Shown here piece after piece: positions 4,409-54,470 of a DNA stretch of 64,000 nt. The position numbers were made by a program, and so were the translations under genes. The notes beneath the pieces were generated by a model. That model did no database searches and was not told the origin of the DNA. It saw only the letters and a program-made list of their open reading frames with translations. The stretch comes from Xanthomonas hortorum pv. cynarae (lineage in GTDB: Bacteria; Pseudomonadota; Gammaproteobacteria; Xanthomonadales; Xanthomonadaceae): NCBI RefSeq assembly GCF_002939985.1, contig NZ_MDFM01000028.1, positions 1 to 64,000 on the forward strand, written 5' to 3'. Every line of letters starts with the position of its first letter. Position 1 is the first letter of the stretch.

Positions 4409-5176
4409 GTGGTTGGCGTGGCGCGCTCGACTGCACGCTATCAGCGCCGTCCTGATCGGGATGAGGAGGTCATTGCGCTGCTCTCCGAATTGGTCGAGCG
4501 TTTTCCCGAGCGTGGTTTTGGAAAGCTCTTTCAGATCATCCGCCGTCGCGGGCATGTGTGGAATCACAAAAGGGTCTGGCGCGTGTATTGCCTGATGAAG
4601 CTTAATCAGCGTCGTCGCAGCAGGCGCCGGGTCCCGACGCGTCATCCACAACCGCTGACATGCGGAGCACGCCCCAATGCTGGATGGTCAATCGACTTTA
4701 TGTCCGATGCGCTGTGGGATGGTCGACGCTTCCGCACGTTCAATGTCATCGACGACTTCAGTCGGAAAGCCTTGGCGATCGAAGTGGACTTGAATCTTCC
4801 GGCCGCCCGCGTCATCCGCACCTTGGAGCGCATCGCAGCCTGGCGCGGCTATCCCGTCAAGCTTCGCCTGGATAATGGCCCGGAGTTTGTCGCATTGGCC
4901 TTGGCCGAGTGGGCCGAGCGCAAAGGCATCGCCTTGGACTTCATCGAGCCGGGACGGCCGATGCAAAACGGTTTTATCGAACGCTTCAACGGCAGCTACC
5001 GGCGCGGCGTGCTGGACATGCACATCTTCCGCACGCTGAGCGAGGTTCGCGAACAGACCGAACACTGGCTGGCCGACTACAACCAGCAGATCCCGCACGA
5101 CAGCCTGGGCGGGCTAACGCCCGCCGAGTTCCGTGAGCAACATCAACCGCAGACCTCTAGTTTTGGCTGGCACTGA
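4409..5176 (+). CDS. IS3-family transposase OrfB (DDE integrase domain)
   Basis: Catalytic half of the transposase. An HTH_21-like segment (GVARSTARYQRR) is followed by the rve integrase core with the acidic triad visible as SIDFMSD, LRLDNGPEF and NGFIERFNGS, the last with the usual K/R seven residues later. The likely product is an OrfAB fusion made by -1 frameshifting near 4320-4332, since the frame is open upstream of the annotated GTG. Intact by eye, so the element may still be active. The last codons overlap the right inverted repeat. Confidence 0.9.
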   Translation: MVGVARSTARYQRRPDRDEEVIALLSELVERFPERGFGKLFQIIRRRGHVWNHKRVWRVYCLMKLNQRRRSRRRVPTRHPQPLTCGARPNAGWSIDFMSDALWDGRRFRTFNVIDDFSRKALAIEVDLNLPAARVIRTLERIAAWRGYPVKLRLDNGPEFVALALAEWAERKGIALDFIEPGRPMQNGFIERFNGSYRRGVLDMHIFRTLSEVREQTEHWLADYNQQIPHDSLGGLTPAEFREQHQPQTSSFGWH

Positions 5177-11392: not shown

Positions 11393-11470
11393 TTCACTGA
11401 GCCTGATGTAACTACCCGGATCCCCGTACTACGGAAGTTTCCTGTTTTTGGTGGCATTGCATGCAAGACA

Positions 11471-11505
11471 TCGAGTTGCGCGTTCGCCAGCAGCGCGCAA
11501 CTCGA
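11471..11505. terminator. Strong hairpin after the porin gene
   Basis: TCGAGTTGCGCG (11471-11482), 11-nt loop, CGCGCAACTCGA (11494-11505): a perfect 12-bp GC-rich stem between the convergent ends of the porin and the Abi gene. No U run follows on either strand. Probably a bidirectional termination or RNA-end hairpin. Confidence 0.55.
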
Positions 11506-11595
11506 CAATCAGGACGGCGATACACACACTTCAAACGCGCTATCGAGCGGCCGTTGCAGACATGCCCGCGCACCAGCCTTGTGGCAGGTCAGTGC

Positions 11596-12516
11596 TTATC
11601 TCCACAGCGCGTGCGTCTCCCAGTTGTACGGGGCTCCCATGCCGGCTCTATGCGACGCGTCGACCAGAAGCGGTCGCAGGTGATTGCTGACAGTCATCCG
11701 CCAGTTCGTAACGTTGGCCGCAGTGCTTTTGAGCAGGTGATTCAACACGCACAGCACGAAAAACAGGCGGTTTGCTGGAACCACCGACGACGTGCTCGCC
11801 CAGACCCCGTGCCTGGGAATCATCGGCGACACGCCAAGAACCCGATTCCACAACCGACCATGGTGCGCCGCCATGTTGCGAACCACGGAGACGGTATGAA
11901 GCCAACTGACCAAAACCGGTCCAGCCGTCTGAAATTCAGCGGCAATTGCGGTTTGATCCACGCCATGCATGGCACGCACCAATTTGGACAGCGTGCCAAG
12001 TGATATCACCTCACTGGCCATATAAATGGGCACTTCAGGGAACGGTGGGGTGGTGTATCGCTGTCTGTAGTGGTCTATGAACGTCTCCCGGGCGCGGCAG
12101 ACCTCGTCGTCGACCTTTCTTAGCCAGATTACGTGCCAATTACCTAAACTGCGTCGGTCCCCACCGTCTGCCCTGAAATTAGCCGCGTTGCGATGGCCAA
12201 AGCTTCCGTAGGCGTGAGCCAGCCTATAGGTCACTGCCGTCCGGGTGGCCACTTCAATATGTCCAATGGCTTCGCCTACAAGATGGCGCAGAAGACGATC
12301 AAACTCGTAAAGTCCGAGCGCGGTGTCCATGCTCGCGCCCGGCAGATAGGTATCGCTGCCTGCAACTCGCAAAGGAAACAGATAGCCCATCAGGCGGTAG
12401 TAACCAACCCTCCGCAGGTAGAGTTCTGCTGTGACGGGATCGGCGATTGCCAGACCTCGGTCCTGCAACTGCTGAATCTGCTGGGCGTAGTCCAACGCCT
12501 CCTTCGTGTACTGCAT
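11596..12516 (-). CDS. Abi_2 (AbiF/AbiD-type) HEPN abortive-infection protein
   Basis: 306 residues from the ATG at 12516, which is preceded on this strand by GGGAGGTG; a longer open frame to 12558 would start inside a terminator. Abi_2 features: QIQQLQDRGLAIAD and YYRLMGYLFPLR at the N-terminus, HIEVATRTAVTYRLAHAYG in the middle, and the HEPN RNase signature VVRNMAAHHGRLWN (R213-x4-H218) near residue 215. Family members (AbiD, AbiF) are HEPN toxins that stop phage growth, presumably by cleaving RNA. A terminator-like hairpin sits directly upstream (12548-12599), as expected if a small RNA is made in front of the gene. The gene stands alone between the porin and the methionine operon. Intact. 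Confidence 0.85.
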   Translation of the reverse strand: MQYTKEALDYAQQIQQLQDRGLAIADPVTAELYLRRVGYYRLMGYLFPLRVAGSDTYLPGASMDTALGLYEFDRLLRHLVGEAIGHIEVATRTAVTYRLAHAYGSFGHRNAANFRADGGDRRSLGNWHVIWLRKVDDEVCRARETFIDHYRQRYTTPPFPEVPIYMASEVISLGTLSKLVRAMHGVDQTAIAAEFQTAGPVLVSWLHTVSVVRNMAAHHGRLWNRVLGVSPMIPRHGVWASTSSVVPANRLFFVLCVLNHLLKSTAANVTNWRMTVSNHLRPLLVDASHRAGMGAPYNWETHALWR

Positions 12517-12540
12517 TGTCCCCACCTCCCTGTGCCCAAG

Positions 12541-12665
12541 GCAAAAAAAACCCGCCAAATTGCGCTTTCAGCAGAAGCTGTAGAGGCGTGGCGGGTGTGT
12601 TGACGAAATTCTGCACCATTTGGTACCGCACAGCAACCAAATGTTAGCCAAATGTGACGCGTTCA
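12541..12665 (-). ncRNA. Candidate small RNA ending in a terminator upstream of the Abi gene
   Basis: On the minus strand, CATTTGGT and ACCAAATG form an 8-bp stem with an 11-nt loop (about 12616-12642), preceded by the direct repeat ACATTTGG-N3-ACATTTGG. Next comes CCCGCCA...TGGCGGG followed at once by eight T residues (about 12542-12597), a textbook intrinsic terminator that ends just before the Abi ribosome-binding site. This architecture (structured RNA, terminator, HEPN toxin) matches RNA-antitoxin systems. I see no convincing promoter, and the 5' end is unknown. Existence as an RNA is inferred. Confidence 0.5.
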
Positions 12666-12999
12666 GCTCGCAGCTTTTTCACTTGCAGGGTTACGTAGCC
12701 GCCCCGCGCGTGCAGTTCCTAACAAGGCCAGTGATGGCGCTGACGAGCAAGTCCTCGCAGCAATGGTTAAACCAGGCCAGAGCCCACTATCGGCTTACCA
12801 TCTTCCCGGACTGGGAGCCAACCATGGGTCCTGATCGACATCGCACATGGCAGCCAAGCATCACATGCGGTGTTAGCTACCATGCCTCAGCCTAGGTACG
12901 CGCACGGCACACTCGACAAGCAAACGACCTGATTCCACATCATGACGCTGAGAGCGAGGCACCTGCGACGGCAGCTAATCCATCGAAAGCACCAGCGCA
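12666..12999. other. Intergenic stretch, nothing recognised
   Basis: Between the candidate Abi-associated RNA and mesD (both on the minus strand). Only weak short open frames without ribosome-binding sites are present. It may hold the promoter of the RNA and the end of the mesD transcript. Confidence 0.4.
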
Positions 13000-20866: not shown

Positions 20867-21135
20867 CACGACCTGCAACAGGCTACAGCCGGTTTTCCTC
20901 CAGCATGAGACGCAACGGGTATGTTCCAAGAGCGGCTACCAAGACGTAGCGAGCGGGTCGTCAGGTGGGCGCGGACTGCGCGCTCAGAACCGCAGTGTAC
21001 GAATGGTACATGCCGATTCCGAGCATCGGCCGCGCCCGCCCGACGGCTGCACAGGAGTTTTGTCAGCTTTTCCAAGACGCATAGTCTCCTCGCGGCCCTG
21101 TGCCAGATCGATTTTGCGCCCGTGTCTGATCGCAG

Positions 21136-54299: not shown

Positions 54300-54470
54300 G
54301 TCTGCAACCTGCAGGCGCGACCGACGCAATGCCTGCGTCGGGAGGGCGGCGAATACAACACCCGTAAGGGGAATAAGCCCGCCGGCTACGTGCGGTTTCT
54401 AACCTCCCGACATCCCGTCGCCTGCGGGCGATGGTCTTTGGCTTATGGAGGTTGGTCATGCTTCGTGCAC
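54300..54470 (+). ncRNA. Structured leader upstream of symE-like gene
   Basis: GTCGGGAGG (54337-54345) pairs perfectly with CCTCCCGAC (54403-54411), enclosing about 57 nt with further small helices. An alternative hairpin GACGCA/TGCGTC (54323-54339) competes with the left arm, and TCGCC-TGCG-GGCGA follows near 54418-54432. Such mutually exclusive stems suggest a regulatory RNA or leader. In enteric bacteria symE is controlled by an overlapping antisense RNA (SymR); whether one exists here cannot be told. Inference. Confidence 0.45.

Follow-up and report, generated by a model that had tools for sequence, protein, structure and literature searches.

Does the DNA in front of the Abi_2 gene at this locus encode an RNA, how far would such an RNA extend, and what might it do? 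The window, by which we mean the whole stretch of 64,000 nt analysed here (Xanthomonas hortorum pv. cynarae, NZ_MDFM01000028.1 positions 1-64,000), carries the feature on its minus strand, where a first-pass annotation had proposed a structured RNA of 125 nt. Judging from the sequence, which offers a family match, covariation, the position of promoter and terminator across relatives and an intact HEPN motif, the locus is very probably a toxin-antitoxin unit of AbiF type, with one RNA and one protein partner. Its protein side comprises the following features.

11596-12516, minus strand: gene for an AbiF-type protein of 306 aa (Pfam Abi_2, E 2.4e-49; PADLOC AbiD, E 1.5e-62)
11863-11880, minus strand: HEPN RNase motif RNMAAH, intact, from sequence and translation (motif definition from PMC12373285)
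12521-12530, minus strand: ribosome-binding region GGGAGGTGGG, ahead of the ATG at 12516, by direct reading

The protein covers positions 2-184 of the 184 of Abi_2 (PF07751) and is thus a full-length member by Pfam, so that the complete domain and the RNxxxH motif of AbiF/Abi_2 HEPN proteins are both present. A sequence match over residues 14-306 (E 1.1e-34) points to PDB 8vz6, an 'Abi family protein', as a relative of solved structure. At E ≤0.001 the gene is the single Abi_2/AbiF match in the genome and adjoins the single match to the abiF RNA family (Rfam RF03085) at that threshold, which lies directly upstream of it, the position of an abiF RNA; a protein-based search of genome contigs for relatives of the AbiF protein matched its pattern in 46 stretches and confirmed none of them. 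The unit sits in a variable site (11394-12984) between a porin gene and a metE-like gene, and these flanks are ~1.6 kb apart in the window, ~136 bp apart in G021, and 6-12 kb apart, with other DNA between them, in genomes of several other species (G034, G006, G028, G032 and G018). Elsewhere in the window Rfam matches were found to sX9 (20934-21011, minus) and sRNA-Xcc1 (54337-54419, plus), both known Xanthomonas small RNAs (Rfam).

The RNA side is predicted to consist of three nested features.

12543-12601, minus strand: predicted RNA antitoxin of ~58 nt, made up of the leader AACACA, one abiF hairpin and a U tract (RF03085, covariation, R1)
12551-12595, minus strand: abiF hairpin with outer stem CCCGCC/GGCGGG (RF03085 match, alignment, covariation)
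12543-12550, minus strand: T8 tract, with which the hairpin doubles as a predicted intrinsic terminator (sequence, terminator scan)

The outer stem of 6 bp, CCCGCC (12595-12590) with GGCGGG (12556-12551), encloses 33 nt and is separated by one unpaired A from an inner stem of 3 bp (CGC 12588-12586 with GCG 12565-12563); the loop begins CTCT, and a 6-nt internal loop, CAATTT, lies on the 3' side. A stem followed by T8 had been recognised at first pass, and it is this two-helix structure that replaces the simple 7-bp stem described there. No second site in the 64-kb window combines a perfect, GC-rich stem of 6 bp contained in 60 nt with a run of at least 7 T after it; the terminator scan returned 2 sites against 1.7 in shuffles, and the folding energy of the whole 125 nt is ordinary (z -1.21; 19/200 shuffles at least equally stable). 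We count the element as real because of its family match and its covariation, both of which are confined to ~12601-12543.

The RF03085 model aligns to the terminator hairpin within 12601-12543 (minus) over positions 1-37 of 37 with 34.5 bits (E 1.6e-4), and since the curated gathering cut-off is 37 bits a default Rfam scan misses the RNA, which, by structure and context, is best regarded as a close relative of the abiF family and not a formal member at the cut-off. It has the two-helix hairpin, conserved loop and covariation of abiF RNA, and shares with the Rfam family both helices, the start of the loop and the spacing, differing in a longer apical part. With R1, a covariance model that includes the window RNA among its training sequences, it scores 65.4 bits. 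The likeness noted at first pass, to RNAs of AbiF-type HEPN proteins linked to Cas13 ancestry, is borne out by the RF03085 match.

Overlapping samples at genus, family and class level gave RF03085-positive genomes in 3/35, 6/297 and 25/369 cases, respectively, and 36 loci for comparison. All three genus matches lie directly before Abi_2, and an Abi_2 reading frame stands directly downstream at 25 of the 36 loci (by a profile built from these loci), one of these frames being cut by a contig end and two being spread over two overlapping frames. The rest comprise two loci with an N-terminal fragment, one with a fragment seen by eye (L048) and eight with no Abi_2 in the fetched flanks, and because of these eight the RNA-toxin pair is separable. 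Across the 25 linked loci each of the 225 pair cells holds a standard pair, and 5 of the 9 pairs vary on both sides; the pairing and the both-side values were each reached by 0/500 shuffles and the number of pair types by 4/500, and in slid versions of the alignment pairing falls to 32-51%. The perfection of the pairing is partly selection, because the rows were chosen by Rfam match. The unpaired positions are also conserved, and the apical part of the hairpin varies.

Within the genus, Abi_2 matched in 12 of 35 genomes. An RNA precedes four of the ten strong Abi_2 genes (E 1.8e-49 or better), namely those of the window, G019, G020 and L011, the last found by R1 only (44.2 bits); R1 at E ≤10 found no RNA before the other six (L005-L007, L010, L008, L009), and L005-L007 adjoin restriction genes. 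L008 and L009 show before Abi_2, by eye, a TTGACA promoter, AACACG, a CCCACC...GGTGGG hairpin and a T run; this hairpin is recognised neither by Rfam at gathering score nor by R1, and possibly represents a diverged class of antitoxin RNA. By eye, too, the divergent Abi_2-like genes of L015 and L016 are each preceded by a similar hairpin and T run (CCCCG...CGGGG and T7-8; opposite strand).

Tandem pairs of abiF RNAs were seen at L019/L022 (G089) and at L181:4237-4299 and 4450-4511 (G536). The pair in G089 precedes one Abi_2 gene, and given that its second RNA has its own TATAAT box it may form two transcription units and not one two-motif RNA. Several abiF RNAs without AbiF stand at what appear by eye to be defence loci (L026, L027/L047, L031, L034, L039; L177-L182), where they have HsdR-like genes, HsdM/HsdS- and Fic-like genes, or AbiEi/AbiEii-like genes as neighbours; these bacterial orphans may be remnants, antitoxins that were retained, or RNAs that serve other genes.

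An orphan RNA of another setting is the family-level RF03085 match L020, whose genome (G254) has no Abi_2 match. It lies at L176:11541-11604, minus strand, after a Q-like antiterminator gene in a prophage that carries terminase, portal, head, endolysin and primase genes, and over the 40 nt of its hairpin it does not differ from L021, an AbiF-linked RNA from another genus. Toxin-less abiF RNAs were likewise seen in many IMG/VR contigs (L056-L175, L272-L391, L461-L488) and in nine named phage records (L184-L188, L190, L192-L194): Aeromonas phages PZL-Ah8 and vB_AhaP_PT2, Rhizobium phages Pasto and RHEph21, Synechococcus phages S-SZBM1 and S-CREM1, Brevundimonas phage Bajun, Salicola phage CGphi29 and the record ctMEh928. 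Seven of these nine RNAs pass the Rfam gathering score (Pasto and Bajun fail), and 79 of their 81 pairs form by script count; the outer stems differ, the inner pairs C-G, U-A and A-U are all three represented, and PZL-Ah8 and PT2 show one compensated pair between them (C-G vs A-U). On plasmid CP113227.1, between genes for a DNA methyltransferase and a restriction subunit S, an RNA stands 17 nt before an Abi family gene and shares 89.8% identity over 49 nt with the PZL-Ah8 RNA, which we therefore regard as close to a real AbiF antitoxin. Structural or lysis genes flank the RNA in the four T7-like phages, and in Bajun, RHEph21 and the cyanophages tRNA genes lie nearby. The window RNA had no match in phages by blastn. 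Two further blast candidates were dropped, Stenotrophomonas phage Bhz60 with no R1 match and Sulfurimonas phage SNW-1 with a partial R1 match of 24 bits.

A scan of IMG/VR with CCACGCCTCT...GCGCACC, in which four outer stem pairs were free on both sides, gave a non-random sample of at least 120 loci, at least 87 of them distinct. All six outer pairs are present in 73 of the 87 distinct matches listed (mean 21 and maximum 29 with the 3' sides re-dealt), and these 73 amount to 17 different stems; when the scan was repeated with an altered loop, it gave 62 loci (44 distinct), none of them with a full stem. For the counts that follow we kept 96 of the at least 120 loci, those with R1 scores of at least 37 bits over model positions 1-62 or 12-62, and dropped two partial matches of 41-42 bits (L157, L127), weaker matches and loci without a match. 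Among the matches listed, an Abi_2 frame lies near 1 of the 96 viral RNAs, a number unchanged with a broader profile, and of 100 RNA-bearing virus records searched whole (91 of the 96 listed contigs and the nine named phage records) one contains Abi_2; the virus contigs are often fragments, and the search of the nine named records spanned their entire length. When the AAGCC...GCTCAAA version was scanned for, again yielding a non-random sample, 37 full stems were seen in 110 distinct sequences among the matches listed (re-dealt mean 7.8, maximum 14), and Abi_2 at 2 of 40 loci among the matches listed.

For a like-for-like comparison we took all matches to the 21-base string AACAACACCCGCCACGCCTCT in bacterial genomes and in viral contigs. 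The 76 bacterial loci have Abi_2 directly downstream in 53 cases, or 54 counting L206, which falls just outside the limits; elsewhere Abi_2 is upstream (1), absent (19, two of them unlike the RNA) or the locus is at a contig edge (2). The 45 viral loci have Abi_2 directly downstream in one case and none in 39, with less than 500 nt downstream in five; ten of the 45 repeat the sequence of another row, and the two collections are not fully separate, because L198 (no Abi_2) and L488 appear to be the same contig.

A tRNA gene lies within 300 nt of 17 of the 96 viral RNAs listed (random positions: mean 3.1, maximum 10), a count made without deduplication, ten of these RNAs seeming to belong to a single related group. 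The best promoter falls at the conserved place in 32 of 79 distinct viral RNAs among the matches listed (shuffles: mean 8, maximum 14), of which 21 are among the 39 RNAs that have an AACAACA leader and 11 among the 40 that lack it; scores of some of the promoters are very low, and the 79 include L104, which is AbiF-linked.

These viral copies bear on whether the hairpin might be only a transcription attenuator for the Abi gene, with no free RNA acting on the protein. We consider this unlikely, even though a terminator-like element does stand between promoter and gene and RCd22 with its terminator, when placed before a reporter, lowers expression in C. difficile (PMC12373285). The unpaired positions conserved across the 25 loci are unneeded for termination, and full outer stems accompany the real loop in viral contigs (73 of 87 distinct among the matches listed) and never the changed one (0/44). 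Fewer than five T occur in the 9 nt after the stem in 18 of 73 viral copies among the matches listed, and a pure terminator role becomes less likely because the loop is kept and the U tract is absent from two of the nine named phage copies.

Upstream of the hairpin lie the following features.

12608-12613, minus strand: predicted -10 box CAGAAT (promoter alignment, sequence)
12631-12636, minus strand: predicted -35 box TTGCTG, with a 17-bp spacer; TTGATG in the G020 and G019 orthologs (promoter alignment)
12617-12643, minus strand: 5' inverted repeat, arms 12643-12636 and 12624-12617, overlapping the -35 box and spacer (sequence, homologs)

With the promoter scan anchored on the hairpin (start of the -10 box 22 to 16 nt ahead of the stem, dinucleotide shuffles as control), a sigma-70-like promoter is best just before the hairpin at 22 of the 25 Abi_2-linked loci (shuffles: mean 2.4, maximum 8). 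The window's own promoter scores 6.1 bits, equal to the mean best score of the shuffles (6.1), so the case for it comes from the homologs; a simple promoter scan found none. The predicted start of the RNA is ~A12601, which opens a short leader; in most of the 25 linked loci this leader is AACAACA, AACACA or a sequence like them.

Because of this predicted start, the 8-bp inverted repeat (CATTTGGT/ACCAAATG) and both copies of ACATTTGG (12655-12648 and 12644-12637) would lie in promoter DNA, as would two of the ATTTGG copies. Alone, the 5' hairpin is unremarkable, since perfect 8-bp inverted repeats with loops of 3-20 number 109 in the window; when tried as a second abiF motif, it matched neither Rfam (E ≤10) nor R1. 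The motif ATTTGG occurs three times in the 125 nt, above expectation (15 on both strands of 64 kb), and only its third copy, within the abiF hairpin, is retained in the two nearest orthologs, G019 and G020. At the other 24 Abi_2-linked loci, G019 and G020 included, the 70 nt preceding the hairpin contain neither ATTTGG nor the 5' repeat; two of the 24 have unrelated AT-rich repeats of 7 and 9 bp there.

That the functional RNA is the larger 125-nt element, with its 5' hairpin and ATTTGG repeats at work, is decidedly unlikely, since the promoter position in 22 of the 25 homologs has the RNA begin beyond the 5' hairpin, and the other 24 linked loci lack both the repeat and ATTTGG in front of the abiF hairpin. 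The local enrichment of ATTTGG and the weakness of the window's own promoter speak for it, as do the arms in G020, where 7 of 8 pairs can form if G-U is allowed and one is broken (read from the alignment), so that pairing by itself would permit a 5' hairpin. We predict instead that the 5' repeat is promoter DNA, whether an operator or a chance repeat, rather than RNA. Thus the structured RNA of the first-pass annotation survives as the abiF-family core at 12601-12543 and loses its 125-nt extent, the 5' part being predicted promoter. The inverted repeat, the two ACATTTGG copies and the three ATTTGG copies on the minus strand are all present in the sequence as described, and the layout noted there, a terminator between promoter and toxin as in RNA-antitoxin systems, agrees with an RNA with terminator, a predicted promoter and an AbiF gene. 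Conservation upstream of Abi genes, expected of both hairpins, holds for the terminator hairpin (225/225 cells) and fails for the 5' one (24 loci), and the suggestion that ATTTGG or the 5' hairpin is an RNA part or binding unit is unsupported, the homologs placing a predicted promoter over them.

Zilberzwige-Tal (Cell 2025) is said to describe AbiF as a non-guided toxin-antitoxin system, which counts against a role of the RNA as a guide. Such a guide, letting AbiF recognise target RNA as a crRNA does for Cas13, is extremely improbable: AbiD/F proteins do group with Cas13 HEPN domains (PMC12165695) and the apical part of the hairpin does vary, but the variable part is short (CAACGAT or TAACAAT at seven of the 25 linked loci, CAACGAT in six of the nine named phages), and RCd22 works as an antitoxin (PMC12373285).

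The favoured reading, an RNA antitoxin paired with an AbiF toxin, places the locus among known systems as follows. The order of RNA antitoxin, terminator and toxin RNase is that of ToxIN and other type III systems. The fold of ToxN differs from that of AbiF, and the 306-aa protein, with Abi_2 as its sole Pfam match, is not a two-HEPN effector of the Cas13 kind. ToxI consists of tandem repeats that fold as pseudoknots (PMC12373285), whereas the window has a single abiF motif match and lacks the tandem RNA repeats of ToxIN-like type III toxin-antitoxin systems. As in RCd22-AbiF of C. difficile phi027 (PMC12373285), an abiF motif RNA with its own promoter, here a predicted one, lies directly upstream of an Abi_2 gene, with a terminator between RNA and gene and the HEPN RNxxxH motif in the protein; RCd22 has 88-132 nt, two abiF motifs and a separate terminator, whereas in the window one predicted motif is itself the terminator. 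According to the same source, RCd22 is co-transcribed with abiF, mostly ending at the terminator before the gene, and it binds AbiF and neutralises its bacteriostatic toxicity in cis and trans; neutralisation was lost when the stems were weakened and retained when letters were changed with the pairs kept.

By homology with C. difficile RCd22, the window RNA should be an RNA antitoxin. The sigma-70-like promoter at 12636-12608 would start the RNA near 12601, giving a 6-nt leader and one abiF hairpin, and the hairpin with its U8 tail would end most transcripts at ~12543 to leave a free antitoxin, occasional read-through past the hairpin yielding AbiF mRNA. The RNA would be expected to bind the AbiF HEPN dimer and hold the RNase off, and its loss, for example upon phage shut-off of transcription (a trigger that we infer), would free the toxin. 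One hairpin may in this way set the antitoxin-to-toxin ratio by termination and also be the antitoxin. Neutralisation by direct binding, leaky termination and growth arrest are what we infer from RCd22-AbiF. Counting against the unit as a whole are the RF03085 score under the gathering cut-off, the shuffle-level score of the window promoter, the six strong Abi_2 genes of the genus before which R1 found no RNA, the eight RF03085 loci lacking Abi_2 in their fetched flanks, and the two motifs and separate terminator of RCd22.

What the toxin-less copies might do for phages is suggested by PhiTE, which uses a pseudo-ToxI against ToxIN (PMC3475682). This phage copy of an RNA antitoxin is a model for the orphan abiF RNAs, although it concerns another toxin family and was shown by experiment, the phage abiF RNAs being known from sequence alone. 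The simplest account of the latter is probably a decoy against host AbiF, as pseudo-ToxI is against ToxIN. With moderate confidence we propose that many phages of diverse hosts carry the orphan abiF RNA as a decoy that binds and silences host AbiF, a widespread RNA-based counter-defence, and that the RNA would often be expressed from its own promoter at the conserved place, or else from tRNA clusters or from intergenic sites by structural genes. Against this stand the orphan copies in bacterial genomes and the fact that blast and pattern searches favour conserved loops by design. An abiF sRNA has been described in cyanophage S-CREM1 (PMC9964418; review PMC12197685), the same copy as found here, and the available parts of these two sources mention phage abiF RNAs for S-CREM1 and for three phages in Rfam; they agree with the present work in placing an abiF RNA in a phage, and contain no mention of toxin absence or of a decoy. 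Nor was a decoy role or toxin absence for phage abiF RNAs mentioned in the available parts of the literature searched on this topic.

The window adds to a known family what is predicted to be a minimal abiF antitoxin that is its own terminator, from a Xanthomonas-like genome; the testable RNA has been trimmed from 125 to ~58 nt, in a system whose protein, AbiF, is a proposed ancestor of Cas13. The toxin-less phage copies, which lie outside the window, are the stronger result and the part likely to surprise a specialist. If they are decoys, phages would be fighting AbiF on a large scale with acquired antitoxins, and these would provide ready candidate inhibitors, a phage set, and a way to learn which phages AbiF acts against.
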